Source: Anaerolineales bacterium
GTDB lineage: Bacteria > Chloroflexota > Anaerolineae > Anaerolineales > Villigracilaceae
Direction: 5' to 3'
Assembly (NCBI GenBank): GCA_014379595.1
Contig: JACMLM010000033.1
Coordinates: 1-64,000, forward strand
DNA length: 64,000 nucleotides
The notes beneath the pieces were generated by a model. The model made no database searches and was not told the DNA's origin. It worked only from the letters and a program-made list of their open reading frames with translations. Of this stretch, positions 582 through 16,977 are shown one piece after another. Position 1 is the first letter of the stretch. Each line of letters opens with the position of its first letter. Both the position numbers and the translations under genes were made by a program.

Positions 582-1313
582 CTATTTCACTTCACTAGTT
601 GTTTCCTCGTGAAGCTTCAACTCATCAAACATTTTATTTTTCAATTCATCAAAATGTTGTGTGGGTATTTGACCCAGCCCTTCATCGAAATTCGATTTCA
701 ACTGACCAACCAGGCTATCAAGTTTAGCTTTATTCGCTTCAAAGAAGCCACCCATATTTTTCTCGAAAGCGGGGTCGCTCTTTCTCTTGAAGCCGCGCTT
801 TCGCAAATCTTTTATATAATCTGTGACAATGCCTGTCAGCCATTTTACGATGGACACTACAACGCCCCAGCTAGACTGAAATGTGCCTTTCATCACGCGG
901 CGCATCAACTTCTTATTGAGTCCCTTTTTAGCGTTTTGAAGAGCGACAGCATAGTGATTCGTTTTAGCGGAGTCAAATTTTTCGTGTGCAAACAATTCAT
1001 TGACGAGATAGCCTGAATAATAAGCGTCTGTTGCCATATCCAGCGCCTTGCCCCACTCTAAAAAGAAGATAAGTTCCTGAGCGATTTGCTTGAATATACG
1101 CTTGACGACAAGCAAACATCCATTCGAGAGAATAAACTTGTATTGATAGGATAATGTTGTCAATTGCTCATCACTTAAAGTCCTTTGATGTTTTTTTGCT
1201 AATTCGGAGATCATTCGTTTCCATAGATATGCAGCAAGTTTTTCGTCTAAAAATGGAATAGGCGCAAACAATGAAGCACCGATCAATAACGAGTGATACA
1301 TGATAATAAACAT
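582..1313 (-). CDS. Unknown protein, 243 aa
   Basis: I do not recognise a family. The start codon overlaps the stop of the ammonia-lyase gene by one base (TGATG), which points to translational coupling. The N-terminus is hydrophobic (about residues 1-22) and could be a membrane or signal segment. The middle (residues 50-95 and 140-165) has amphipathic to hydrophobic helical stretches, and the last 80 residues are charged and helical with many Lys, Glu and Asp. No Cys clusters or catalytic motifs stand out. A second in-frame ATG at codon 5 is possible as start. Codon use and the operon position argue for a real gene even though the function is unknown. Confidence 0.7.
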   Translation of the reverse strand: MFIIMYHSLLIGASLFAPIPFLDEKLAAYLWKRMISELAKKHQRTLSDEQLTTLSYQYKFILSNGCLLVVKRIFKQIAQELIFFLEWGKALDMATDAYYSGYLVNELFAHEKFDSAKTNHYAVALQNAKKGLNKKLMRRVMKGTFQSSWGVVVSIVKWLTGIVTDYIKDLRKRGFKRKSDPAFEKNMGGFFEANKAKLDSLVGQLKSNFDEGLGQIPTQHFDELKNKMFDELKLHEETTSEVK

Positions 1314-2836
1314 CAGCCCAATCCTCCCACAACCTTTTCCACTTCAATCAAAATCTCCCCAGACTTTACTAATGCTTTCATCCGGTTATGATCGTTATAA
1401 AGCGGACGATCCACTTCGAGATGATCTACATGCTTGCGAATTGTATCGCGGGCTTTTTGTGTCCCTCTACCAAATGTGAACTTGCGGAAATCCATAGCTT
1501 GTGCGGCAGCCATGAATTCGATTCCCAACACACCATAGGCATTATCTAAAATTTGTCCGTTCTTCAAAGCAGTATTCATTCCCATCGAAACAAAATCTTC
1601 CTGATCCGCCGCAGCTGGAATGGATTGAATACTTGCAGGCGCGGATAAAATTCTTTGTTCTACGATCAAATGATCGGCGGTGTATTGGCTGAGCATTAAT
1701 CCAGAGTAGAACCCAGGCTCATGGGCGAGGAAATCAGGCAGCCCCTGAGAAAGAGCTGGGTTTGTTAATCGATTGAGTCTACGTTCAGATAAAACAGAAA
1801 TCATCGTGATGGCAATGCCCGCCATATCCATCGGCAATGAAACAGGCGAGCCTTGAAAGTTCGCGCCTGTTAGAGTTAAATTATCTTCGGGGATGAAGAT
1901 CGGGTTATCGCCCACGCCGTTCAATTCAATTTCAACTTGTGACCTTGCATACGCAATCGCATCACGTGCCGCACCAACCACTTGCGGCGTGGAACGCATC
2001 GAGTACGCATCCTGCACCTTCGTTTTCATCTTGCCCGTTGTCAAATCCGAACCTTCCACCATCTTCGCGATATTCTGCGCCGATGTGATCGCGCCTTTGA
2101 ATCCGCGCAGTTCATGCAGCTTGGTGTTATATGGTTTCATATTTCCAAGCAGCGCCTCAATCGACATCGCCGCAGCGATCTCTGCCTGCTTGATAAATCT
2201 TTCCATATCATAAATATGCAATGCAGACATGGCAGTTAATAAATTGGATCCATTAATCGCAGCCAGACCATCTCTCGCCTGCAAACCTGGGACTTCGATC
2301 CCAGCCTGCCGCATCGCTTCTTGACCTGTGAGTCGTTCGCCGTTTAAAAACGCTTCGCCTTCGCCCATCAGCAGCAGCGCGGCTTGTGCCATTGGAGCAA
2401 GGTCACCGCTTGCGCCCACTGACCCTTTCTGACAAACAACTGGTGTGACGCCTTTGTTCAGCATCTCCACCAGTGTTAACGTGATCTCGGGTCTGCAGCC
2501 TGAATTCCCATGTGCATGGACATTGATGCGCCCTGCCAGTGCCGCACGGACATGTTCTATCGGTGCAGGCTCACCAATTCCAGCGGCATGGTTATATATT
2601 AAATACTTTTGAAATTCTTTGACCTGATCATCATTCAATATTTTTTCTGAGAATTCCCCAATGCCCGTGTTCGTGCCATACATAATTTCTTTATTAGCTA
2701 ATTTCTCTTCCAGCATTGCACGGCAAATTTTTATACGATCCAATGCTTCGGGAGCAAGTTCTATTTTTTCATTGAAGCGCGCAATCGCAACAAGTTTTTC
2801 AACTGTAAGAGATGAACCGTCGAGGGTGATGGTCAT
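1313..2836 (-). CDS. hutH: Histidine ammonia-lyase (MIO family)
   Basis: Deaminates L-histidine to urocanate using an MIO group formed from an internal Ala-Ser-Gly. With the ATG at 2836 as start (AAGGAG 7 nt upstream; an in-frame TTG at 2842 lies almost on the ribosome site), the triad falls at residues 142-144. Known HAL active-site positions then line up with the Pseudomonas enzyme: Tyr53, His83, Ser143, the Q-x2-Y-x2-R block, a conserved NFQG Phe and the Glu of QEDFVSMG. In most HALs that last block reads QEDHVSM, so Phe replaces His here. There are no hutU, hutI or hutG genes nearby, so the rest of histidine degradation is elsewhere or absent. A related aromatic ammonia-lyase activity is less likely, because the Glu is typical of HAL. 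Confidence 0.88.
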   Translation of the reverse strand: MTITLDGSSLTVEKLVAIARFNEKIELAPEALDRIKICRAMLEEKLANKEIMYGTNTGIGEFSEKILNDDQVKEFQKYLIYNHAAGIGEPAPIEHVRAALAGRINVHAHGNSGCRPEITLTLVEMLNKGVTPVVCQKGSVGASGDLAPMAQAALLLMGEGEAFLNGERLTGQEAMRQAGIEVPGLQARDGLAAINGSNLLTAMSALHIYDMERFIKQAEIAAAMSIEALLGNMKPYNTKLHELRGFKGAITSAQNIAKMVEGSDLTTGKMKTKVQDAYSMRSTPQVVGAARDAIAYARSQVEIELNGVGDNPIFIPEDNLTLTGANFQGSPVSLPMDMAGIAITMISVLSERRLNRLTNPALSQGLPDFLAHEPGFYSGLMLSQYTADHLIVEQRILSAPASIQSIPAAADQEDFVSMGMNTALKNGQILDNAYGVLGIEFMAAAQAMDFRKFTFGRGTQKARDTIRKHVDHLEVDRPLYNDHNRMKALVKSGEILIEVEKVVGGLG

Positions 2837-5883: not shown

Positions 5884-6786
5884 ATGAACAAAGAAAAAAT
5901 AGATGAGCTAAAGAAGCATCCATCACAAGGAACTCGCTTTACTTACAAACTTAAGAATGCAAATGTTTATGTCTCTGATGAAGGATTTCACTTCATAGAT
6001 TACCTAGACCCTGTAGAAGAGATACCTCACAATATAGATGCTTCACAATTAACCAACGAAGAGTCTGCTTATATTGAAACGCAGTTACAGGCGAATTTAC
6101 AAAAGTTCAGAAATCAAGCAGATATTGTCAAAAAACATCTTCAACTCAATAAAGCTAAAGTGCTGGATATTGGCTGCGGAGGCGGCTTGTTCCTATCTCT
6201 TCTAAAACAAGATGGAGCAGAAGTTGTTGGCATTGAATTAAGTGACAGCCGCGCACAATACGCAAAAATTAAGCATAACCTTGAAATCCATAAATATGCA
6301 ATTGAAGATGACTTCTGGCAAAAAGAATATGTCAATTCTTTTGATGCAATCACCCTTTGGGATGTAATCGAGCATGTCAATTATCCGTTTCAGGTTTTGC
6401 AGTCTACTGCGAATGTATTGAAGCAAGGCGGACTCCTCTTTATCGACACGCCATGCCGTGATAGTTTCTATCATCAGTTCGGCGAGTTCACCTATCGACT
6501 CACCAAAGGTAAATATCCCACTTTCTTGAACGCAATGTATTCATCGCATTTGTTCGGTCATAAACAGATATTCTCCACTAATGAAATGAAGCAACTTTTC
6601 GAGTCAGCGGGATTTGAAATCATTGACTTAAATAAATTCCACGAACTATCCTTCCCATACAGTTTCTATTTGAAGAAATTATTCAGATCAGAAGTGCTCG
6701 TCAGTTTATTATTGCCAGCTGTTAAAATATTCTTTAAGATATTCAAAATCCAAAATAAAATGTTAGTGATCGGGAGAAAAAAATGA
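5884..6786 (+). CDS. Class I SAM-dependent methyltransferase
   Basis: Methylates an unknown substrate with S-adenosylmethionine. The Rossmann motif I is at residues 95-101 (DIGCGGG), an acidic residue for the ribose follows at the end of strand 2 (GIEL, residues 116-119), and DAITLWDVIEHV around 145-156 matches motif II/post-II of UbiG-like enzymes. The first 90 residues, including a small Tyr/Asp-rich region, are not part of the core fold and resemble leaders of methyltransferases that act on sugars or lipid-linked glycans. The gene overlaps the PIG-L gene by four bases (ATGA) and opens a four-gene unit ending with an MBOAT and its SGNH partner, so a role in modifying an envelope glycan is likely by context. 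Confidence 0.85.
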   Translation: MNKEKIDELKKHPSQGTRFTYKLKNANVYVSDEGFHFIDYLDPVEEIPHNIDASQLTNEESAYIETQLQANLQKFRNQADIVKKHLQLNKAKVLDIGCGGGLFLSLLKQDGAEVVGIELSDSRAQYAKIKHNLEIHKYAIEDDFWQKEYVNSFDAITLWDVIEHVNYPFQVLQSTANVLKQGGLLFIDTPCRDSFYHQFGEFTYRLTKGKYPTFLNAMYSSHLFGHKQIFSTNEMKQLFESAGFEIIDLNKFHELSFPYSFYLKKLFRSEVLVSLLLPAVKIFFKIFKIQNKMLVIGRKK

Positions 6787-7520
6787 GCGATGAATATATT
6801 CCCCAGCGTGCAATGTCCATCCAAGCTCACCCAGATGATCAGGATTTTTCTGTGGCAGGTACGCTTGCAAAATGGGCAAAAGCTGGATGTGAAATCACAT
6901 CCGTGCTTATTACCAGCGGAGACTCTGGCTCAAATGACATAACCAGAGGCACAGCGTATAAAGCTGAGCTTGCGGCTCTACGTGAGGGTGAACAACTGGC
7001 AGCCAACGAAGTGCTTGGCATCAAGCATACAGTTTTTTTACATTACCCAGATGGCGAACTGGAACCGTCGCTTCCTTTACGAAAAGATCTAACGCGTGTC
7101 ATCCGTCAATATAAACCTGACGTGGTTTTTGCGGGTAACCCTGAAGCGTGGTTTTATGGCAATGAATATGTTAATCATCCCGATCATCGCGCGGCAGCAC
7201 AAGCTGCATGTGAAGCGGTCTTCCCGTCAGCTGGGACCAGGCTCATTTTTACCGACCTGCTTGAAGCGGGGTATGAACCGCACAATGTTGAACGGTTATA
7301 TATCCACGGGTCGGAAAAAAATGATACGTGGATCGACATCAGTGAAACCATCGATATAAAGATCGAAGCGCTGAAAAAACATGTAAGTCAAATGGATACG
7401 CATGAAGTGGATAAATGGATGCGCGATTGGGCGAAGGATGAAGGCAAGGAAAAAGGAATCGATTTTGCTGAAGCCTATAAAGTGATGATCCTGCAAAAAA
7501 AGGAAGAGCCAGAGAAATAA
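6783..7520 (+). CDS. PIG-L/LmbE family N-acetylglucosaminyl deacetylase-like protein
   Basis: Members are zinc enzymes that remove N-acetyl groups from GlcNAc-type sugars on lipids, glycosides or antibiotics. The metal-binding motif AHPDDQD is at residues 15-21, and the second motif, HPDHRA, starts at residue 132. Length (245 aa) is normal. There is no signal peptide, so it should act in the cytoplasm. It is translationally coupled to the methyltransferase and is followed after two bases by the MBOAT gene. The set methylation, deacetylation and O-acylation fits decoration of one glycan. A mycothiol- or bacillithiol-type role is also possible for this family but has no support in the neighbourhood. 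Confidence 0.88.
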   Translation: MSDEYIPQRAMSIQAHPDDQDFSVAGTLAKWAKAGCEITSVLITSGDSGSNDITRGTAYKAELAALREGEQLAANEVLGIKHTVFLHYPDGELEPSLPLRKDLTRVIRQYKPDVVFAGNPEAWFYGNEYVNHPDHRAAAQAACEAVFPSAGTRLIFTDLLEAGYEPHNVERLYIHGSEKNDTWIDISETIDIKIEALKKHVSQMDTHEVDKWMRDWAKDEGKEKGIDFAEAYKVMILQKKEEPEK

Positions 7521-7522
7521 GC

Positions 7523-8926
7523 ATGGCTTTTACGAGTTATGTTTTTCTCCTTTTCTACCTGACCGTTTTTGTTTTGTATTGGGTGGTTCGGGAACGCCGC
7601 TGGCAAAATGTTATCTTGCTGGCGGCGAGTTATATTTTTTATGGCTGGCTGCAACCCTGGCTTGTAGTATTGCTTGGGGTATCCACCCTCGCTGATTTTT
7701 TCCTTGCACGCGGCATGAACGCTTATCCCAACCGCAAACTTCTTTTTATATGGATAAGTTTGTTCGTTAATCTGGGAGTGTTGGCATTCTTTAAATACTT
7801 CGGGTTTTTTAGAGAAGGTGCTATTGCGGCTTTGCAAAGTGCAGGTATTCAAGCTGACTTATTTCTTCTTTCGATCCTATTGCCCGCAGGGCTTTCTTTT
7901 TTTACTTTGAAAAAGCTAGGCTATATGATCGATGTCTATCGCGGCACACTCAAGCATTCACACTCACTAATTGACTTTGCATTATATGTATCATTCTTTC
8001 CACAGATCATAGCGGGCCCGATTGAGCGGCCGCAAAAGCTATTGCCGCAACTTGAAGCGCCGCGTATTTGGCAAATGGATTATTTTTACAGGGCATGGCC
8101 TTTGCTGGTGATGGGTCTTTTCAAAAAGATCGTGATCGCCAATAGCATTAAAGTGATCGTAGATCGTGTTTTTGGATTAAACGACCCAACAGGTTTTTTA
8201 CTCATCAGCGGCGCACTTGGTTTTACCTTACAGATCCTCGCAGATTTTTCTGCGTATACCGATCTCGCGCGCGGAGTTGCTTTGCTGCTGGGTTTTGAAA
8301 CTTCAGAAAATTTCAATCGTCCATATACATCTCTTACACCAACCGATTTTTGGAATCGCTGGCATATTACTCTTTCCACCTGGTTAAGGGATTATGTTTT
8401 TTTCCCTGTGCGCCGCGCGCTTCTACAAAGCCGATTTAGATTCAATGAAAGCATCGCCATGTCCATCCCACCGATTGTGACGATGTTTATTAGCGGCCTC
8501 TGGCATGGCGCAGGTTGGACGTATGTGATTTGGGGTTTATATTACGGTGTGTTAATTGCCGCTTATCAACTGATCGGCATTCGAGGCGAATGGAAACCAA
8601 GCTCCAAAATAAAAATCTTTTTTGCATGGTTCATCATGTTTATGTTTATTGTCTTTGGTTGGGCCATCTTCCGCGCACCTTCTATCAACTGGGTTGGCAA
8701 CGCGCTCTTTCACTCTCCATTTGTACGCGCACAAAATGACCTGGTGCTTGGCTTGATCGCGCTCACCATGGCATTGGTTTATTCACTGCCTTTGATCATT
8801 AAAATGTTACTGGATCAATATTCAAAGGAAAGCTGGCTGCAAGGTGCTTATTACGCGATTGCCGTTTCACTCATATTAATTTATATCAATTCATCATCAT
8901 CGGATTTTATTTACGTTCAATTCTGA
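7523..8926 (+). CDS. MBOAT O-acyltransferase with a C-terminal tyrosine acyl-shuttle hexapeptide
   Basis: An AlgI/DltB-type polytopic membrane protein that passes an acyl group across the membrane. Family marks are FPQIIAGPIERP, DFWNRWHITLSTWLRDYVF, and the conserved active-site His (residue 328) in SGLWHGAGWTYVIWG. The length of 467 residues is typical. The last six residues are FIYVQF, with Tyr464, right after the final membrane helix. This matches the F-x-Y-x-x-F shuttle motif known from DltX and from MBOATs that carry it fused. Positive charges before the last helix put the tail outside the cell. The SGNH partner follows 9 bases later. No carrier protein or ligase is in this unit, so the donor may be acyl-CoA. 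Confidence 0.92.
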   Translation: MAFTSYVFLLFYLTVFVLYWVVRERRWQNVILLAASYIFYGWLQPWLVVLLGVSTLADFFLARGMNAYPNRKLLFIWISLFVNLGVLAFFKYFGFFREGAIAALQSAGIQADLFLLSILLPAGLSFFTLKKLGYMIDVYRGTLKHSHSLIDFALYVSFFPQIIAGPIERPQKLLPQLEAPRIWQMDYFYRAWPLLVMGLFKKIVIANSIKVIVDRVFGLNDPTGFLLISGALGFTLQILADFSAYTDLARGVALLLGFETSENFNRPYTSLTPTDFWNRWHITLSTWLRDYVFFPVRRALLQSRFRFNESIAMSIPPIVTMFISGLWHGAGWTYVIWGLYYGVLIAAYQLIGIRGEWKPSSKIKIFFAWFIMFMFIVFGWAIFRAPSINWVGNALFHSPFVRAQNDLVLGLIALTMALVYSLPLIIKMLLDQYSKESWLQGAYYAIAVSLILIYINSSSSDFIYVQF

Positions 8927-8935
8927 AAATAAAAT

Positions 8936-9973
8936 ATGCGCTTCTTTCTGGCACAGCCCCCTGTGGGTAAATTCATCCTGCTTCTATCCATCATCATGGT
9001 CGCCACCTCGATCATTCTCCCACGTCGCTACAACTTGGATTTTCCCCGTAACCCTGGCCCTGCGTTGGATGCAAAGGTCCGCAGGAATTATATTGATGTC
9101 CTTGTTGAACAGGAACCAGAGATCGTTCTCATGGGTGATTCAACCCTGGTCCTCGGCCTGGATGCAGACTTACTTGCCCAACAAACAGGCAAATCAGTTT
9201 ATAGCATTGGCATTCCAGGATCTGCCTCTGCTTTATGGTATCTCATTCTCAAGAATAATATTGCCGAGTCATCTTATAAGCCGAAATATCTACTTGTCGT
9301 ATTTCGCGACACAATCCTGACTGCACCAGGTTATCGCGTTCACGGCAGTTATTTTGAGTTAGTGGATGAATATGCGCGCCGCAATGAACCTTTGTTCATT
9401 CAGAATTCATTCGTCAACTTGATGAATCCGCTTGAAATTGCAGCCGAGAAATATTTTCCTTTATATGTCTCGCGTACAAACATAAGAAATAATATTGACG
9501 CACATATCCGTTATTTTTCGCCAGCCCTCTTTGGCTGTGACAGAAATTGCACCGATTATGCAATGGGTGATATTTTCAGCGGCGCAGACCTTGAACCACA
9601 AGCGCTGGTCAACGCTGTAGCAGCGGCTGAGTCCGATCTTTATAGGCCAGATCAAATGGATTTTTCCACTCAAGTGGATCAATCCTATCTTCCTGAAATG
9701 ATCCGCATTGCGAAGCAACATAATATTCAAATTGTGTTTGTGCGTATCAAGGTCGAAACTGTAGGGCCGCGCATTACCAATTCCCCAGCAATGCTCAATT
9801 ATCTCGATTCACTCACAGATTACCTGGCAAATGAAAACGTCCCGCTTCTGGATTTTGGTTCTGACCCAAGGCTCACACATGATCTGTTCTACGATTCGAT
9901 CCATCTAAATGAACAGGGTCAGGTCGTGTTTACTAAAATGGTTGCTGATGAATTGAAGGGTATTTTAAAATAA
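8936..9973 (+). CDS. SGNH-type extracytoplasmic acyltransferase, partner of the MBOAT (DltD/AlgX-like role)
   Basis: Probably takes the acyl group from the MBOAT's C-terminal tyrosine and places it on a glycan outside the membrane. The N-terminus has one membrane anchor (about residues 9-28) and the rest should be outside. The SGNH catalytic set is intact: MGDST with Ser69, a conserved Gly in IGIPGSASA, and D-S-I-H near the C-terminus with Asp320 and His323. Length (345 aa) fits the DltD-like and AlgJ-like group. It is the last gene of the unit that starts at 5884 and lies 9 bases behind the MBOAT. A plain esterase role cannot be excluded from sequence alone. Confidence 0.82.
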   Translation: MRFFLAQPPVGKFILLLSIIMVATSIILPRRYNLDFPRNPGPALDAKVRRNYIDVLVEQEPEIVLMGDSTLVLGLDADLLAQQTGKSVYSIGIPGSASALWYLILKNNIAESSYKPKYLLVVFRDTILTAPGYRVHGSYFELVDEYARRNEPLFIQNSFVNLMNPLEIAAEKYFPLYVSRTNIRNNIDAHIRYFSPALFGCDRNCTDYAMGDIFSGADLEPQALVNAVAAAESDLYRPDQMDFSTQVDQSYLPEMIRIAKQHNIQIVFVRIKVETVGPRITNSPAMLNYLDSLTDYLANENVPLLDFGSDPRLTHDLFYDSIHLNEQGQVVFTKMVADELKGILK

Positions 9974-9985
9974 TTAGTTGCTAGC

Positions 9986-10687
9986 TTAGAAAAGCAAGTA
10001 CCCAACAAGCACAGAAGCTATAGTCATCGTTATATTATCAATATCTTTAAAGTGCAATGATTCAACCAGCGCAGCAGCAAGTGCAATCAATGTTATGGGC
10101 AAAAGATAATTTGTAAAAGGGCCTGCAAATACACCTGCACTTACATAAATAAATAAAATAATCGCAGATAAAATCCATCCGCCTGCAAACACACCAATTG
10201 ACCCTGCCACGGATTTTTCCCTGCTCCAGGGAAGTTTCGGTGATTTGATCCGCCGCCCCACAATATCAGCAATCCCGTCTCCGCCACACATCATCATTAA
10301 CGCGACAATGCCAATTGGGGAATCTCTCCAAAATAGGATCGTCAACACAACGAACATAATTCCATAATAAAGCGGACCACGCAAAATTTCTTTCGGGTCA
10401 CCATTGCGTGACATGGCTTTCACAGATGCATCATCTTTTATGATGCCAAGTCCGATCAAGGCAAATTGAACAGTGATCGTAAATGGAACTAAAGCCGCCA
10501 GCCAACGTGCATCAGGTGTATCTCGAAAAAGAAACCAACATAAAACGAATAATGGACCTGTGCCAATATGAATCACCTTGCGGCTGAGTTTGCTATCCAT
10601 CCAGCCACGATGAGCAATAAAATCCATGGAACGGAGAAAGATGAGCGAAATACCAAAAGTAATGATGAGTGCAATATAGTTATTCAA
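9986..10687 (-). CDS. Phytol/dolichol kinase-like integral membrane CTP-dependent kinase
   Basis: Members phosphorylate isoprenoid alcohols such as phytol, dolichol or polyprenols with CTP. The protein has about seven hydrophobic segments. Key motifs are RKVIHIGTGP (conserved R-K-x2-H-x3-G) near residue 36 and the nucleotide-binding GGDGIADIVGRR near residue 135. I place the start at a TTG at 10687, because GAGGAG lies 6 nt before it; the frame can also open at a TTG at 10705. It lies between the two acyl-transfer modules on the other strand and converges on the first. A role in making lipid carrier phosphate for envelope glycans is possible but only by context. Confidence 0.8.
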   Translation of the reverse strand: MNNYIALIITFGISLIFLRSMDFIAHRGWMDSKLSRKVIHIGTGPLFVLCWFLFRDTPDARWLAALVPFTITVQFALIGLGIIKDDASVKAMSRNGDPKEILRGPLYYGIMFVVLTILFWRDSPIGIVALMMMCGGDGIADIVGRRIKSPKLPWSREKSVAGSIGVFAGGWILSAIILFIYVSAGVFAGPFTNYLLPITLIALAAALVESLHFKDIDNITMTIASVLVGYLLF

Positions 10688-10749
10688 TTTAAACTCCTCA
10701 GGCAATTTATTTATATGATAAACCCGTAATACTATGAAAAGATATACTT

Positions 10750-10778
10750 TTTACGCGGTAAATCCCCTATGCTATAAT
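10750..10778 (+). promoter_or_regulatory. Sigma-70-type promoter for the second acylation operon
   Basis: TTTACG and TATAAT are 17 bp apart, with an extended TGC just before the -10 box. It reads into the lipoprotein gene at 10816, which has CGGAGA 8 nt before its ATG, and is the only clear promoter in front of the microprotein-MBOAT-SGNH genes. Confidence 0.65.
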
Positions 10779-10815
10779 CCAAAATTGTTTTCAAAATAAC
10801 CAAACGGAGATTTCA

Positions 10816-11205
10816 ATGCGATACTTAACAATATTATCCATGCTCGGGTTGGGCATACTTTTATCGGCCTGTGGTTCAGCTTCCAATTCAACGGGCGCAG
10901 TGGATGCGGTTGAAGGCTATGTCAATGCACTCGCCAGCAATGATGAAGCTAGTCTATCCGCGCTTTCCTGCGCCGAATGGGAAACAAATGCACTGACCGA
11001 GCTTGATTCGTTACAGGCAGTGACAGCATCACTCGAAAGCTTTTCCTGCCAGCAATCAGGAACAGATGGTGACACAGCTCTGGTTGACTGCGAAGGAAAG
11101 ATGATCCTCAGCTACAACGGAGAAGATCAGGAACTTGACCTCTCCAACCGAACTTATCAGGTTGTTGAACAAAGTGGCAGCTGGCTGGTCTGTGGCACTC
11201 AATAA
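10816..11205 (+). CDS. Small lipoprotein, unknown function
   Basis: A 129-residue secreted lipoprotein. The signal peptide ends in the lipobox LSAC (Cys19). The mature part has two Cys pairs (SALSCAEWE, SFSCQQ, VDCEG and the C-terminal WLVCGTQ), which may form disulfides. The shape, with a helical start (AVEGYVNALASNDEASLSAL) and then beta strands, resembles the small DUF4878/NTF2-like lipoproteins that are common in this phylum, but I cannot name the family with certainty. It is the first gene after the promoter at 10750, and its stop lies only 5 bases before the microprotein, so it may belong to the acylation module. Confidence 0.8.
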   Translation: MRYLTILSMLGLGILLSACGSASNSTGAVDAVEGYVNALASNDEASLSALSCAEWETNALTELDSLQAVTASLESFSCQQSGTDGDTALVDCEGKMILSYNGEDQELDLSNRTYQVVEQSGSWLVCGTQ

Positions 11206-11210
11206 CTATT

Positions 11211-11327
11211 TTGAAACACATTTTTTCACGCGAAAATCTTTGGGCTGTGCTTTTCTGTTTGATACTGATCGCCTTGGTGATCCTTACAGCAGATAGCAGC
11301 CCAACGTGGATCTATCAAGGATTTTAA
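11211..11327 (+). CDS. DltX-like acyl-shuttle microprotein, 38 aa
   Basis: A tiny gene between the lipoprotein and the MBOAT. It starts with TTG and its stop TAA is one base before the MBOAT ATG. The product has a basic N-terminus (Lys2, Arg7), one membrane helix (about residues 10-27) and a short outer tail that ends exactly in WIYQGF, with Tyr35. This is the layout of DltX: one helix plus a C-terminal F-x-Y-x-x-F hexapeptide whose Tyr carries the acyl group from the MBOAT to the outer transferase. Trp takes the first Phe position. The next gene is an MBOAT that lacks such a tail, as expected if the shuttle is a separate protein. No strong ribosome site is visible; coupling to the upstream stop is likely. 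A longer start at CTG 11190 is possible. Confidence 0.72.
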   Translation: MKHIFSRENLWAVLFCLILIALVILTADSSPTWIYQGF

Positions 11328-11328
11328 A

Positions 11329-12759
11329 ATGACGATCAATCAAATTTTGATCGTTGTAGCAGCCGCTTTGTTTTGGGGATTTGTCATGCGCGAACGCGGC
11401 CGTTTGCATTTCATCCTGATCGCAAGCATCATCGTCATCTTCTGGCTGCAGTCTGCCCTGCCTTTGCGCGGCTTTGATTTTTGGCTGCCCGTCGCAACAC
11501 TTGTGATAACAATCTTCAGTTGGTATATCACTGCTGCTCTAGAAGCTCGGCATTCAAGAAAAAATTGGAGCACGCTTGCGCTCATAATTACCATAGTTTT
11601 GCTATTAAATTTAACTCGCTTTCTTCCTTTCGATCCCGCACTAACAGCTTCACGCCCACCTCAAACTGAAATCTTATTATTGATTCTGGCTTTATCAGGA
11701 TTGTTCTTATTTCTCACGAAAAAGCTAACGCGCTTTCATACAGCTTTATTAGCTATTGCTATCATCAGTCTTATTCTTATTTTTCTTGCCATCAAGGTTC
11801 CCGCATTTGCTTATTGGGTTAGTTATGGAATTCGGTTGCTAACCAGTCAATCATTGGAGCAGGCAAAAATCACTGATCTGCGTTGGCTTGGGTTTTCCTA
11901 TGTTGCCTTTCGTATCATCCACACCCTTCGTGATCGTCAAATGGGACGCCTGCCTGATGTTGATCTCGCGGAATATATGACTTATGTTATTTTCTTCCCC
12001 GCTTTTACTGCTGGCCCGATTGACCGTATTGAAAGATTTATGAAAGACCTGCGTCAACCTGCAACCGCCCTTGGAAATGATGAGCTCCTTGTTGCTGGTC
12101 AACGCTTCATCCTTGGATTATTCAAAAAATTTGTGATTGCAGATGCTCTTGCATTAATTGCATTAAACGATGTCAACGCATTACAAGTCCGCACGGCTGG
12201 ATGGACATGGATATTGTTGTATGCGTATGCATTTCAGATCTATTTTGATTTCAGCGGCTATACCGATATTGCGATCGGGACTTCCCGATTGCTCGGTATT
12301 AAATTACCTGAAAATTTTTCGACGCCTTATCTAAAACCAAACCTGACCCAGTTCTGGAATAACTGGCACATTACGTTGACCCAATGGTTCCGCGCTTATT
12401 TTTTCAATCCCACTACGCGCTGGTTACGCTCATGGAAAAACCCATTGCCAATGCCACTAATGATTTTAGTTACGCAAGTTGCGACGATGGTTTTGATCGG
12501 TTTCTGGCATGGAGTGACATGGAACTTCACCCTCTGGGGTCTCTGGCATGGACTTGGCCTATTCATCCATAACCGCTGGAATGAATTCACGCGTGCTCGT
12601 GCAACAGCCTGGGCAACAACACCCATTCGCCAAAATGTACTAGCCATCAGCGGAGTATTAATCACATTCCATTTCGTGGCATTGGGGTGGATATTTTTTG
12701 CATTATCTTCGACATCTACTTCGTTACATGTATTTTTAAAGTTGTTTAGCATAAAATAA
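11329..12759 (+). CDS. MBOAT O-acyltransferase (DltB-like) of the microprotein-type module
   Basis: A 476-residue polytopic membrane acyltransferase. It has TAGPIDRIERF, QFWNNWHITLTQWFRAYFF and the active-site His394 in IGFWHGVTWNFTLWGLWHG, all in the usual MBOAT order. Its C-terminus (LKLFSIK) has no tyrosine hexapeptide, unlike the MBOAT at 7523, and the microprotein just upstream supplies one. It should take an acyl group from the acyl carrier protein encoded at 15049 and load it on the microprotein Tyr outside the membrane. It follows the microprotein stop by one base, so the two are coupled. About five extra hydrophobic segments precede the MBOAT core. Confidence 0.9.
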   Translation: MTINQILIVVAAALFWGFVMRERGRLHFILIASIIVIFWLQSALPLRGFDFWLPVATLVITIFSWYITAALEARHSRKNWSTLALIITIVLLLNLTRFLPFDPALTASRPPQTEILLLILALSGLFLFLTKKLTRFHTALLAIAIISLILIFLAIKVPAFAYWVSYGIRLLTSQSLEQAKITDLRWLGFSYVAFRIIHTLRDRQMGRLPDVDLAEYMTYVIFFPAFTAGPIDRIERFMKDLRQPATALGNDELLVAGQRFILGLFKKFVIADALALIALNDVNALQVRTAGWTWILLYAYAFQIYFDFSGYTDIAIGTSRLLGIKLPENFSTPYLKPNLTQFWNNWHITLTQWFRAYFFNPTTRWLRSWKNPLPMPLMILVTQVATMVLIGFWHGVTWNFTLWGLWHGLGLFIHNRWNEFTRARATAWATTPIRQNVLAISGVLITFHFVALGWIFFALSSTSTSLHVFLKLFSIK

Positions 12760-12766
12760 GATAACA

Positions 12767-12836
12767 GTAGGGCGTGCTTGCAGCGCGCCATTTCCTACAT
12801 AACAAAATTCGTCATGCTAAAAGCATGACCTACGAA
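12767..12836 (+). repeat. Palindromic repeat element in an operon gap
   Basis: The gap between MBOAT and SGNH holds a structured element. GTAGG and CCTAC bracket a GC-rich inner hairpin (GGCGTGC...GCGCGCC), then GTCATGCT pairs with AGCATGAC around three A. There is no T-run, so it is not an ordinary terminator. It looks like a dispersed REP-type sequence, but a second copy would have to be found elsewhere. Confidence 0.5.
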
Positions 12837-12850
12837 AGCTTGCAATCTTT

Positions 12851-13948
12851 ATGAAAAACGAAATTAAACCAATAAATATCCTGGTAAAAGGACTTTCCCT
12901 TTTCATTCTTATCAATATCCTCTTTGCTGTTTGGCAGCCGAAGATAGGTCAGTTTTCAGCTTATAACGCGATATTTCCTGGGCGGGAGCGATTGCCATTT
13001 GGTGAAAATTCAGCGCAGGCGTATAACCTCAGCCTTTTTGATTTGGATGCCATGTTTGCATCACATGTAATTAACGATGACCAAAAACAAGATGATGAAT
13101 TTCGCGTTATCTTGATCGGCGATTCGTCTGTTTGGGGAACTTTACTTAAGCCAGAGGAAACTTTAGCTGGTCAACTTAATTCAGCTGATATGTCTGCATG
13201 CGGAAAAAATGTCCACGTGTATAACTTGGGATATCCAACCATTTCATTGACGAAAGATGTTCTCATGCTTTCATATGGAATGAAATATGAACCAGACCTC
13301 GTCATTTGGCTGACGACATTGGAAGCGTTTCCTATGGAAAAACAGCTCGCTTCGCCGATAGTAGCTAACAACCAGGAAACTCTTAATAGTTTGCGGAGCA
13401 GGTACGGGCTAGTGTTTGATCCGAATGATCCTGCTTTTGTCAAACAGTCATCGTGGATTATTGTAAATCGACGTGCTTTTGCTGACATTATCCGCTTGCA
13501 AATTTATGGGGTGATGTGGGCGGCTACTGGCATTGACCAAATCTACCCAGTTAATTATGAACCTGCTCAAATTAATCTTGAAGATAACGAAAAATTTCAT
13601 GAAGCAAAGCCGCCTATGCTTGATACGAAGTCACTGGCGATCAATGCACTTGAAACTGGTATTCGTGTTGCGGTTGACACACCCGTTATGATCGTCAATG
13701 AACCGATGCTTATCAGTAACGGAGAGAATAGTGATATCCGCTATAATTTCTTTTATCCGCGTTGGGCTTATGACCAGTACCGTGATATGATGGCCGAGTT
13801 AAGCCAGAAAAACGACTGGAACTATGTCGATCTATGGGACGCCGTGCCTGCAAATGAATTTACCAATAGCGCCATTCATCTCACTCCAACGGGAGAGGGT
13901 TTATTGGCTGAAAAACTTGCGCCTGTTATTATGGCGACATGTAAATAA
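12851..13948 (+). CDS. SGNH-type acyltransferase (DltD-like) of the microprotein module
   Basis: Likely the outer transferase that receives the acyl group from the microprotein. One N-terminal anchor helix (about residues 13-30) is followed by an extracytoplasmic SGNH fold. The nucleophile block is LIGDSSVWG with Ser92, a conserved Gly lies in LGYPTIS, and the C-terminal catalytic His is His343 in NSAIHLTPTGEG. The position three residues before that His, normally Asp, is Ser340, so the acid of the triad is missing or supplied from elsewhere. The sister protein at 8936 keeps Asp there. Length is 365 residues. It is separated from the MBOAT by 91 bases that hold a palindromic repeat. Confidence 0.78.
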   Translation: MKNEIKPINILVKGLSLFILINILFAVWQPKIGQFSAYNAIFPGRERLPFGENSAQAYNLSLFDLDAMFASHVINDDQKQDDEFRVILIGDSSVWGTLLKPEETLAGQLNSADMSACGKNVHVYNLGYPTISLTKDVLMLSYGMKYEPDLVIWLTTLEAFPMEKQLASPIVANNQETLNSLRSRYGLVFDPNDPAFVKQSSWIIVNRRAFADIIRLQIYGVMWAATGIDQIYPVNYEPAQINLEDNEKFHEAKPPMLDTKSLAINALETGIRVAVDTPVMIVNEPMLISNGENSDIRYNFFYPRWAYDQYRDMMAELSQKNDWNYVDLWDAVPANEFTNSAIHLTPTGEGLLAEKLAPVIMATCK

Positions 13949-13956
13949 AAAATCTA

Positions 13957-14081
13957 TGTCCTGAGCGGAGTGACGAGCTCTCTTCGAGGAACGTAGTCGA
14001 AGGACAATTTGATTGAAAAATAAATGTTTGAAGCATTATCCTTCGACTACGCCGCAAAATCACGCGGCTCCGCTCAGGACG
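13957..14081 (+). repeat. Nested inverted-repeat element (MITE/REP-like)
   Basis: The gap between the two SGNH genes is almost all one palindromic element. The outer arms GTCCTGAGCGGAG (13958-13970) and CTCCGCTCAGGAC (14068-14080) pair perfectly. Inner arms GTAGTCGAAGGA (13993-14004) and TCCTTCGACTAC (14039-14050) also pair perfectly. The motif family GTCCTGAGCGGAG...GTCGAAGGA is one I associate with dispersed repeats in this kind of genome. There is no coding potential. Confidence 0.7.
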
Positions 14082-14097
14082 AATTACAGGAGTATAA

Positions 14098-15027
14098 ATG
14101 TATAAAGTTCGAAACGCAGTACTGTTTTTGATGATTGCAGTGCTTGCCGCTTGCAGCGATACACCTAAAACAAATGATGTGGAAGTTATTGCTACATCTA
14201 CACAAAATGAAATCACACCTCTTGCAACAGAAACATTGACTCAAGTTCCAGAATCCACGCCTCGCCCAACTCTTGGAGTGGATGAATGGAAAAGCTTTCC
14301 CATCGTTCCAACTATCAGCGATACAGCGCGTGAAATTTATCAGCGCGGGCTTGAAATGGGAAATGACCCGAATGCATTCTCCAAAGTTGGCGACTGCCAA
14401 ACCAATACCAGTTTCTATTTAGTGGACTTTGATTATGCTAATCAGTACAGTCTAGGTGAAGACTATGCTTATCTGCAAGAGACGATTGATCATTATGAAG
14501 GTTCATTCTCACGCACGAGTCTCGCGATGCGTGATGGATATAATGTCGCCGCGATTTTGACTCCTCTGCGAGCCGACCCAAAACAATGTGAGTCGGGTGA
14601 GTCTCCGATTGCATGTGAATTTCGTTTGTATAATCCTAGCGTGGCATTAATTAGTTTGGAGACGAACTTCAATGACCGCTCAGCGGATGATTATGGCAAG
14701 TATATGCGTCAGATTGTGGAATATACAATTGAACAAGGTGTCGTTCCAATCCTCGCCACGAAAGCGGATAATAAAGAAGGCGACCATAGCATCAATGCTG
14801 AAATTGCAGAGATCACGCTTGAATATGATATTCCATTGTGGAATGTATGGGCGGCGATAGATGTGCTTCCAAACCACGGCTTCGACACTGAATTAAATGA
14901 TGGCTTTCATCTTTCATTCTCTCGAAACTTTTTTGATAAGCCTAAGAACATGCTCAGCGGCTGGCCCTGGCGAAACCTGACCGCGTTACAAGCGTTGAAT
15001 GCAGTACGGGAAGGTTTGAACCAATAA
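14098..15027 (+). CDS. SGNH-like lipoprotein with Cys at the nucleophile position
   Basis: A 309-residue lipoprotein (lipobox LAAC, Cys19) with a Thr/Pro linker up to about residue 60. The rest resembles SGNH hydrolases: a block I-like KVGDCQTN with Cys100 where GDS would place Ser, a middle region that reads like block III (ALISLETNFND, where N and D are present), and D-G-F-H near the end with Asp268 and His271. A Cys nucleophile would suit transthioesterification or acyl transfer, or the protein may bind rather than cleave. It sits between the DltD-like gene and the acyl carrier gene, with AGGAG 5 nt before its ATG, so it is probably a working part of the same acylation pathway. The family call is moderate. 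Confidence 0.65.
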   Translation: MYKVRNAVLFLMIAVLAACSDTPKTNDVEVIATSTQNEITPLATETLTQVPESTPRPTLGVDEWKSFPIVPTISDTAREIYQRGLEMGNDPNAFSKVGDCQTNTSFYLVDFDYANQYSLGEDYAYLQETIDHYEGSFSRTSLAMRDGYNVAAILTPLRADPKQCESGESPIACEFRLYNPSVALISLETNFNDRSADDYGKYMRQIVEYTIEQGVVPILATKADNKEGDHSINAEIAEITLEYDIPLWNVWAAIDVLPNHGFDTELNDGFHLSFSRNFFDKPKNMLSGWPWRNLTALQALNAVREGLNQ

Positions 15028-15048
15028 TTCAAGAAAAAGGAAACAAAT

Positions 15049-15297
15049 ATGACAACTGAAATCATCTCCACCCTTGCGAAATTTATTGCGGAAAAAATAT
15101 TGAAGCAGCCGAATAAAGAAATTAAACCCGATGAATCCTTGATATCCAGCGGATTGATCGATTCATTCAGCTTGATGGATCTGGCATTATTTGTTGAAGA
15201 TACCTATGGCGTACGAATCGAAGACACCGAATTGAATGCGCAGACATTTGATAATTTATCCCAGCTAACAGAGTTGATCGCATCCCGTCAGAAGTAA
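15049..15297 (+). CDS. Acyl carrier protein (DltC-like role)
   Basis: An 82-residue carrier protein that holds an acyl group as a thioester on phosphopantetheine. The attachment Ser is in GLIDSFSLMDL (Ser39), the usual D-S-x start of helix 2. The rest is four short helices with acidic surfaces, as expected. AAAGGA precedes the ATG by 7 nt. Its stop codon is directly followed by the ATG of the acyl-AMP ligase, which should load it. In the Dlt pathway the same pair is DltA and DltC. The acyl group cannot be read from this sequence. Confidence 0.93.
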   Translation: MTTEIISTLAKFIAEKILKQPNKEIKPDESLISSGLIDSFSLMDLALFVEDTYGVRIEDTELNAQTFDNLSQLTELIASRQK

Positions 15298-16977
15298 ATG
15301 TCTACATTCTCAAATCTTTTACATCGTTCATATTTAGAAGTTCCTGATAAGGTCAGTATTGTCTTGCAACATGCTGGCGAAGCAGATCAGGAAATCACTT
15401 ATCGACAGTTGATCCTTGGTGCAAATCAATACGCGTTGAGTTATGCACGCGAGGAGTTAAAACCTGGCGAGGTAGTGCTGCTCATCCTTCAGCATGGGCA
15501 GGATTTAACTTTTGCGTTTTGGGGAGCGATATTACATGGTGTGATTCCTGCAATCATGCCGTTTCTCAGCGAGAAACTTTCACCGGAAAGATATCGCGCT
15601 GATCTTGCTTCACTCATTTCAATTACAAAACCATCGGCGATCATCACTTCTGCAGAATTTGAAGAAGAGGCTCGTTCAGCACTCGTGCCTGGCGATTCGA
15701 TTCGCAAGATAATCGTTACCAATACAATCGAAACACAATCAGAACCTGATTTTGAATCATTGCCCGGCATGAAAGCAATGCCCGATGATATTGTCATCTT
15801 GCAACATTCATCAGGGACGACGGGTCTACAAAAAGGCGTAGCTCTCTCGCACAAGGCGGTTCTTAATCAACTTGAGGCATACAGCAAAGCAATTAATCTC
15901 GATGCTGAAAAAGATGTGATCGTTTCATGGCTGCCGCTTTATCACGACATGGGATTGATCTCGTGTTTCCTCATGCCAGTTCTTTTGCGCGTGCCAGTGA
16001 TCGAGATGTCGCCATTTGATTGGGTGCGTGCGCCATATAAGTTGATGCAGTCCGTGTCACAATACAAAGGCACGTTAAGCTGGCTGCCAAATTTTGCATA
16101 TAATTTTTGTGCCAATAAAATTCGTGAACGAAATCTTGAAGATGTGGATTTATCGTCATGGCGGGCTATCATCAATTGCTCGGAACCTGTCCATGCTGAG
16201 AGTCATAAACTCTTTGTAGAAAAATTTGAGAAGTTCGGGCTTCGACCCAATACATTGCAAACATCTTATGCCATGGCTGAAAATGTCTTCGGTGTAACTC
16301 AGAGCTTATTGGAAGCTGGGCCAACTGTCGATGAGATTGACCGCGAATCTTTTATGAAGAACCGAGTCGCGACTCCGCCGATAACTGGTCAGCCATCGAT
16401 GAAGATATTATCTTCGGGACGTCTGCTCGACAACACAAAAATCCGCATCATAAATGAAAATGGAGAAGACATCCCCGACCGTTTGATTGGTGAGATCATG
16501 CTGCAAAGCAATTGTATGTTGACAGGGTATTACAACCGCCCCGATGCTACAGAATCAGTATTACGTAACGGCTGGTACATAACAGGTGATATTGGTTATC
16601 TTGCAGACGGGGAGCTTTATGTCTCTGGGCGCAAAAAAGATATGATCATTGTAGGCGGAAAAAATATTTATCCACAAGATCTAGAAACCTTAACCAGTGA
16701 AGTGCCTGGTGTACATCCTGGCCGCACCGTGGCCTTTGGCATGTATGATGAAGAAGCAGGGACCGAGGAAGTTGTGATCATTGCTGAAGTAGATAGTGAA
16801 GAAGCATCCGAACAGGAAGTCATCGCAGATGCGATCCGCAAACATGTGACGAAGAGTTCAGCAATTGCATTGCGGCACGTCAAAGTGGTTGGTGAAAAAT
16901 GGATCGTGAAGACATCCAGTGGAAAGATAGCACGTTCGGCAAATAAGGAAAAATTTATCGGGGAGCTGAAGAGTTAA
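15298..16977 (+). CDS. FAAL-like acyl-AMP ligase loading the carrier protein
   Basis: An ANL-superfamily enzyme that activates a carboxylic acid with ATP and transfers it to the adjacent carrier protein. Core motifs: HSSGTTGLQKGV (P-loop, near residue 170), WLPLYHDMGLI, NFAYNFC, SYAMAENVFG, GWYITGDIGYL, GRKKDMIIVGGKN, and the C-terminal catalytic Lys in SSGKIARSANKEKF. WLPLYHDMGLI and NFAYNFC are typical of fatty acyl-AMP ligases rather than of DltA, so the cargo is more likely a fatty or short-chain acid than D-alanine. It has 559 residues and starts right after the carrier protein stop. It ends the acylation operon; the ABC-F gene begins 18 bases later. Confidence 0.88.
   Translation: MSTFSNLLHRSYLEVPDKVSIVLQHAGEADQEITYRQLILGANQYALSYAREELKPGEVVLLILQHGQDLTFAFWGAILHGVIPAIMPFLSEKLSPERYRADLASLISITKPSAIITSAEFEEEARSALVPGDSIRKIIVTNTIETQSEPDFESLPGMKAMPDDIVILQHSSGTTGLQKGVALSHKAVLNQLEAYSKAINLDAEKDVIVSWLPLYHDMGLISCFLMPVLLRVPVIEMSPFDWVRAPYKLMQSVSQYKGTLSWLPNFAYNFCANKIRERNLEDVDLSSWRAIINCSEPVHAESHKLFVEKFEKFGLRPNTLQTSYAMAENVFGVTQSLLEAGPTVDEIDRESFMKNRVATPPITGQPSMKILSSGRLLDNTKIRIINENGEDIPDRLIGEIMLQSNCMLTGYYNRPDATESVLRNGWYITGDIGYLADGELYVSGRKKDMIIVGGKNIYPQDLETLTSEVPGVHPGRTVAFGMYDEEAGTEEVVIIAEVDSEEASEQEVIADAIRKHVTKSSAIALRHVKVVGEKWIVKTSSGKIARSANKEKFIGELKS

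Follow-up and report, generated by a model that had tools for sequence, protein, structure and literature searches.

A probable Dlt-like acyl-export locus with a separate microprotein beside a PatA/PatB-type gene pair in an Anaerolineales bacterium

Introduction

In the tyrosine-shuttle systems, an MBOAT-family membrane O-acyltransferase with a catalytic histidine is found together with an SGNH protein and a C-terminal tyrosine peptide. An acetyl-tyrosine intermediate has been shown in PatA, of the PatA/PatB system for peptidoglycan O-acetylation, and in the parts of the same 2025 article drawn on here the Dlt pathway is described with a carrier protein and a microprotein, the other MBOAT/SGNH pathways being said to have neither (PMC12148441).

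Here we describe two adjoining gene blocks of this kind in a stretch of 64,000 nucleotides (the window) of contig JACMLM010000033.1, C36 in our comparison, which belongs to the 4.47-Mb genome of an Anaerolineales bacterium (handles in L, G and C denote loci, genomes and contigs). Block 1 comprises a methyltransferase gene at 5884, a PIG-L gene at 6783 and the genes of MBOAT1 and its partner SG1, and block 2 runs from 10816 to 16977. We consider it probable, well short of certain, that block 2 encodes a Dlt-like acyl-export pathway working through a microprotein and that block 1 encodes a separate pair of the PatA/PatB type. The gene content of block 2 is best read as that of a system handling a non-amino-acid acyl group, which a 38-residue microprotein probably ferries across the membrane; block 1 probably draws on acyl-CoA and on the tail fused to its MBOAT. 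What was directly observed for block 2 is its gene content, a microprotein strongly conserved next to an MBOAT that lacks a tail, the co-occurrence of the ligase and the failure of the curated Dlt tests. The chemistry proposed is modelled on the PatA and Dlt work in the parts of the article used here (PMC12148441); the substrate and the acceptor are likewise inferred.

Comparison with the described systems

Block 2 resembles the Dlt pathway in its complement of parts, all encoded on the forward strand: an AMP ligase of the fatty-acyl-AMP ligase (FAAL) type (15298..16977), an acyl carrier protein with the phosphopantetheine site DSF at Ser39 (15049..15297; PF00550, 35.3 bits), a tail-less MBOAT of 476 residues (MBOAT2, 11329..12759; PF03062), a 38-residue membrane microprotein with one helix and the C-terminal sequence WIYQGF containing Tyr35 (11211..11327, recognised by its open reading frame and its conservation), and a membrane-anchored SGNH protein (SG2, 12851..13948). 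It is unlike the Dlt pathway in that its ligase is FAAL-type, its microprotein falls outside the DltX model and ends in WIYQGF, and SG2 falls outside the DltD model. Moreover, the N-terminal region of MBOAT2 is longer, its residue 139 meeting position 54 of the DltB model, and the gene order differs from that of L250, the Dlt operon used as a control below. Extra lipoproteins are also present, namely a small one with conserved cysteines encoded by the first gene of the block (10816..11205, identified from its sequence) and the SGNH-like lipoprotein SG3, which by alignment carries GDC with Cys100 at the nucleophile position (14098..15027).

The preliminary description of this DNA rested on the observation that MBOAT1 ends in FIYVQF and that the tail-less MBOAT2 comes after a membrane protein of 38 residues whose last six are WIYQGF, and the coordinates and translations bear this out. 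Its Dlt-type reading stands as regards the two forms of the shuttle motif; it left unnamed the carrier (15049) and the ligase (15298), which lie within the region it covered, as well as the lipoprotein at 10816 and the SGNH-like lipoprotein at 14098 with cysteine at the serine position. It is the carrier and the ligase that make block 2 Dlt-like and that also allow it to be shown not to be Dlt.

The control, L250, comes from the same class and is an operon laid out as dltC-dltD-dltX-dltA-dltB; its DltA, DltB, DltC and DltD products, and DltX, pass the curated cut-offs. On the DltB model, whose cut-off is 375 bits, MBOAT2 reached 225.5 and the L250 protein 446.3, and the carrier scored 17 and 19.7 bits on the DltC models against cut-offs of 52.35 and 68 (73 and 79.2 for L250). 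For the ligase, the best-matching models were FAALs, and DltA did not appear in the top 25 of 106; on the DltA model the L250 protein reached 570.9 bits against a cut-off of 559.85. With regard to SG2, no NCBIfam match was found at E up to 1, and thus no match to the DltD model TIGR04092 (170.8 bits against 150 for L250), and the microprotein gave no match to the DltX family PF12459 of Pfam at E up to 10. The DltX cut-off was exceeded in two of 199 genomes of the class, L250 being one of these loci, and the window's genome holds two matches below the cut-off, both on other contigs. G038 carries the L250 operon together with L076, a block 2 system with microprotein, MBOAT2, carrier and ligase, and G146 carries L112 (an MBOAT2-type gene, microprotein, carrier and ligase) together with L255, an operon laid out similarly to L250. 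L251 is a Dlt-type operon by its DltX match; L255 is assigned by layout only.

Block 1 is likened by its architecture, rather than by sequence comparison, to PatA/PatB as outlined in the parts of the article used here (PMC12148441). Its MBOAT of 467 residues carries the fused F-x-Y-x-x-F tail FIYVQF with Tyr464 (MBOAT1, 7523..8926, forward strand; PF03062), and the gene after it encodes an SGNH protein that has GDS and DxxH (SG1, 8936..9973, forward strand). A search of the open-access literature (titles and abstract openings), with subscription papers mostly outside its scope, found no description of a FAAL-fed MBOAT system that uses a microprotein.

The microprotein and its conservation

The microprotein ends in SPTWIYQGF, and a single base separates its stop codon from the ATG of MBOAT2. 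Its start codon is a TTG located 5 bases beyond the upstream lipoprotein gene's stop codon, a predicted start since no obvious ribosome-binding site was seen by inspection; several orthologues start with ATG. For an estimate of chance occurrence the published motif FXYXXF was widened to [FW].Y..F, tryptophan being admitted because it is present here. Out of 1172 frames of the window (stop to stop, at least 30 codons), 2 end in this motif, MBOAT1 and the microprotein, a count on which chance occurrence was rejected. The corresponding figure for 72 related loci is 60 of 20277 frames, and those of the 60 that are shorter than 380 codons are all of the microprotein type.

Besides that of the window, 73 places with an MBOAT2-type gene were found at E up to 1e-90 in the order-level sample, and 60 of these were fetched, 59 from other genomes and one from the window's genome, where it is a second copy. 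In 59 of the 60, MBOAT2 is preceded by a short frame with the ending W-[ILV]-Y-Q-[GAS]-F, the sole miss being L085, which begins 57 bases before its MBOAT. This locus is the second MBOAT2-type gene of the window's genome (C61:58-1440), situated near a contig start and followed by a relative of SG2, with no carrier or ligase match within the 7 kb examined. More widely, 113 of the 120 MBOAT2-type open reading frames with at least 700 bp upstream have a microprotein at a distance of up to 3 kb, and the microprotein profile matched in 62 of 72 named-record loci, among them partial or atypical matches in L127, L165 and L192; the locus sets behind these counts overlap in some genomes. In L181 and L185 the microprotein is found farther upstream of the MBOAT. 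Furthermore, the plasmid of Leptolinea sp. HRD-7 (L244, AP024711.1) encodes a 47-residue 'hypothetical protein' ending in WIYQGF before an MBOAT2-type gene.

The conservation extends past the motif itself. Among 109 distinct microproteins, Pro-8 is present in 109, Asn-30 and Ala-27 in 108 and Glu-31 in 107, none of these residues having been used for selection, whereas the constancy of Tyr, Gln and Phe is partly built in by selection on the tail. The first motif residue is Trp in 108 of the 109, so that WIYQGF does not agree with the strict FXYXXF consensus. A profile built from the 28 residues before the tail, and thus blind to the tail, retrieved 121 frames; two tails are masked and the other 119 of 119 end in [WF][ILV]YQ[GAS]F. 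This profile was trained on the same sequences and shows that no matching frame has another tail, rather than that the samples are independent. The motif codons vary synonymously among the microproteins, and the microprotein has no Pfam or NCBIfam match to DltX. Conservation of the hexapeptide in orthologues, which had been set as a check on the initial observation, was found for the fused tail and the microprotein alike.

A different arrangement was seen in L196 and L197, from a Coriobacteriia and a Syntrophomonadaceae record, where SGNH and MBOAT genes are followed by a separate small membrane protein ending in F.Y..F; no FAAL, DltA or carrier match was found in the locus DNA examined.

With regard to distribution, a phylum sample of 301 genomes contains 26 with MBOAT2-type genes (E up to 1e-60), and all 26 belong to the window's class. 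The relatives taken from the contig scan were the best 80 of at least 567 and have little bearing on other phyla. Of the 72 closest named loci, most carry the label Anaerolineales, Anaerolineae or Chloroflexi; a few are labelled otherwise, for instance Caldilineae or Thermoflexus, and one is an 'uncultured bacterium'.

The membrane O-acyltransferases and their tails

Both MBOATs exceed the PF03062 cut-off of 27 bits, MBOAT1 with 70.8 and MBOAT2 with 83.4, and both retain a candidate catalytic histidine: His328 of MBOAT1 is invariant in alignment A3, and His394 and His347 of MBOAT2 in 61 of 61 aligned sequences. The tyrosine peptide is on MBOAT1 itself, whose C-terminus SSSSDFIYVQF matches FXYXXF strictly, and on the microprotein for MBOAT2, whose own C-terminus, HVFLKLFSIK, has no shuttle motif. 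AlphaFold models of the L125 read-through of microprotein and MBOAT2 and of MBOAT1 (predicted template modelling scores, pTM, of 0.85 and 0.78) gave, in a fold search, the MBOAT fold nearest to DltB. The tethering of the tail to the MBOAT in the L125 model is an artefact of the construct.

The fused tail was found in none of 127 MBOAT2-type open reading frames. Among the 31 loci examined for it, L003 is the second MBOAT2-type gene and 26 of the 30 others end in F-x-Y-x-x-F; in L013 and L016 such an ending is found in another open frame, and L026 and L027 have none. Conversely, in the profile search no separate microprotein belongs to any of the 48 non-MBOAT2 MBOATs that carry a fused tail, the three apparent cases being due to an adjoining block 2. 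The microprotein supplies the part that fused MBOATs bear beyond the end of the shared core. An MBOAT tree, midpoint-rooted, without support values and only partly legible, was given no weight.

The carrier protein and the ligase

The best solved relatives of the ligase are FAALs (examples 3pbk and 3kxw), with which its SWLPLYHDMGL motif and the region after its A5 motif align. The 22 residues after A5, which are absent from the L250 DltA and from the matching proteins of L251 and L255, presumably form the FAAL-specific insertion. FAALs usually supply polyketide or mycolate pathways; the ligase of block 2 differs from them in scoring below the curated family cut-offs and in adjoining an MBOAT-SGNH system. 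At the level of single loci the ligase and carrier are tied to MBOAT2 less closely than across genomes: in 41 MBOAT2 loci with enough flanking DNA, a carrier was found downstream in 26 and a ligase in 26.

The SGNH proteins and the lipoproteins

An SGNH protein had been claimed after each MBOAT, and the expected signatures are present, GDS...DSIH after MBOAT1 and GDS...SAIH after MBOAT2, with Pfam GDSL matches below the curated cut-off and anchor helices judged by eye. SG1 keeps GDS and DxxH in 12 of 12 aligned sequences, and SG2 keeps Ser92 within GDS in 56 of 56 and His343 in 55 of 56. The search of solved structures gave no match for SG1, weak sub-threshold matches to WD-40 repeat proteins alone for SG2, and weak matches, mostly to thioesterase I, for SG3.

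In the SG3 family, GDC replaces GDS in 39 of 39 aligned sequences (orthologues in L064-L123) and the block V histidine is a tyrosine in four; PF13472 matched 6 of 9 members at E up to 0.1, which places the family in the GDSL/SGNH group. Judged by these sequence features, SG3 may serve for binding or as a thioester relay. Six loci (L108, L109, L114, L116, L117 and L119) encode a single protein of 406-429 residues in which the small lipoprotein is joined to SG3, which suggests that the two act together.

Proposed pathway

By analogy with the families involved, the FAAL-type ligase would adenylate a carboxylic acid, probably a fatty acid or some other acid that is not an amino acid, and load it on Ser39 of the carrier. 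His394 of MBOAT2 would then move the acyl group from the carrier arm through the channel to Tyr35 in the outside-facing WIYQGF tail of the microprotein. The tail would swing to Ser92 of SG2, and SG2 would hand the acyl group to an envelope acceptor, assisted by the two lipoproteins. A more specific version, in which a 'fatty-acyl Dlt' lineage specific to the Anaerolineae exports fatty-type acyl groups from carrier to envelope and the invariant cysteine of SG3 serves as a second thioester relay, is put forward tentatively and is doubtful as it stands.

Several observations weigh against this pathway. Ten of the 72 named-record loci gave no microprotein match: two of them, L155 and L174, are truncated at contig ends, and in the other eight (L133, L153, L170, L172, L177, L178, L183 and L193) none was found. 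In the structure models the predicted local distance difference test (pLDDT) falls below 50 at the tails, at residues 25-37 of the microprotein-MBOAT2 model and 458-460 and 462-467 of MBOAT1. The ligase reaches 361 bits on the curated FAAL models, below their cut-off of 600, and the residue three positions before the histidine of SG2 is mostly Ser or Thr, without the usual Asp. Moreover, L227 combines a fused-tail MBOAT with a carrier and a FAAL-like ligase, in L232 an MBOAT of this form occurs with a ligase, and in L234 and L222 a carrier and a FAAL-like ligase stand next to an MBOAT ending in VF[IV]YP. An absolute rule by which a carrier means a microprotein and CoA a fused tail is contradicted by L227, L234 and L222, and by L232 as regards the ligase only, and was rejected.

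Alternative explanations

MBOAT2 might instead take acyl-CoA, the ligase and carrier serving another product. This would account for a further point against the proposed pathway, namely that 15 of the 41 well-flanked MBOAT2 loci have neither gene within 7 kb. However, 69 of 151 order-level genomes have both an MBOAT2-type gene and the ligase, 4 have MBOAT2 alone, 6 the ligase alone and 72 neither (Fisher p 1.6e-30, uncorrected for relatedness, an association that shared ancestry inflates), and we regard the acyl-CoA explanation as unlikely.

That the two blocks cooperate in acylating one polymer, as the preliminary description had put forward as a possibility, appears improbable. The blocks adjoin in the window, in L122 and in L127, and lie about 12 kb apart in G025. 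Notwithstanding, MBOAT1 and SG1 form a cassette, set between the PIG-L/LmbE deacetylase gene (6783..7520, forward strand), which is conserved 5' of it, and a conserved reverse-strand gene for a polytopic membrane protein without a Pfam match (9986..10705), which separates the blocks, and this cassette is removable. In L260, the closest block 2 relative found (MBOAT2 77-78% identical), and in L124, L125, L126 and L066, block 2, the PIG-L gene and the reverse-strand gene are all retained, MBOAT1 and SG1 being absent between the two genes. The cassette occupies its place in the window, L122 (two units), L127, L204, L205, L206 and L208 (two units), and by the same comparison L207 has MBOAT1 and SG1 alone. 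It is found without a nearby MBOAT2 in L205, L206 and L208, and in G125, the genome of L205, no MBOAT2-type gene was found. The presence of either block does not track that of the other, and cooperation is not supported.

Two of these loci have features of their own. L260 encodes an MBOAT of 484 codons, stop to stop, with the tail variant VLYAKF (1102-2554, reverse strand), downstream of block 2, about 8 kb off on the far side of the ligase, and L205 has three SG1-like genes around one MBOAT1. Upstream of the PIG-L gene lies the S-adenosylmethionine (SAM) methyltransferase gene (5884..6786, forward strand), to which none of the 14 loci compared has a match at E 1e-8; its link to block 1 is not supported by this comparison.

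It is likewise improbable that the microprotein has a structural or regulatory role as a subunit and that its tyrosine is not acylated. In favour of this reading, no adduct has been seen and the first motif residue is Trp rather than the Phe of FXYXXF; against it stand the tails retrieved by the tail-blind profile, all readable ones being of the same type, and the provision by the microprotein of what fused MBOATs carry past the shared core. Finally, that block 2 is an ordinary Dlt system D-alanylating a teichoic-acid-like polymer is very improbable and was rejected, for although the kinds of parts are the same and MBOAT2 matches the DltB model and DltB structures, block 2 fails the curated DltA, B, C, D and X tests that the same-class L250 passes, and the genome of L250 has a block 2 system as well.

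Significance

The preferred reading, a Dlt-like export pathway through a microprotein, places in block 2 both a carrier and a microprotein, contrary to what the 2025 article states, in the parts used here, for MBOAT/SGNH pathways other than Dlt (PMC12148441), and its ligase is of a different class. Block 2 is found repeatedly in the order and class to which the window's organism belongs, and fused, split and Dlt forms are found within one class, so that it can be asked whether carrier-fed MBOATs favour a separate tail. If the reading is true, the microprotein shuttle would not be bound to D-alanine, there would be a further microprotein family, unnamed in Pfam and NCBIfam, and block 2 would offer a handle on the envelope chemistry of a little-studied group of bacteria.

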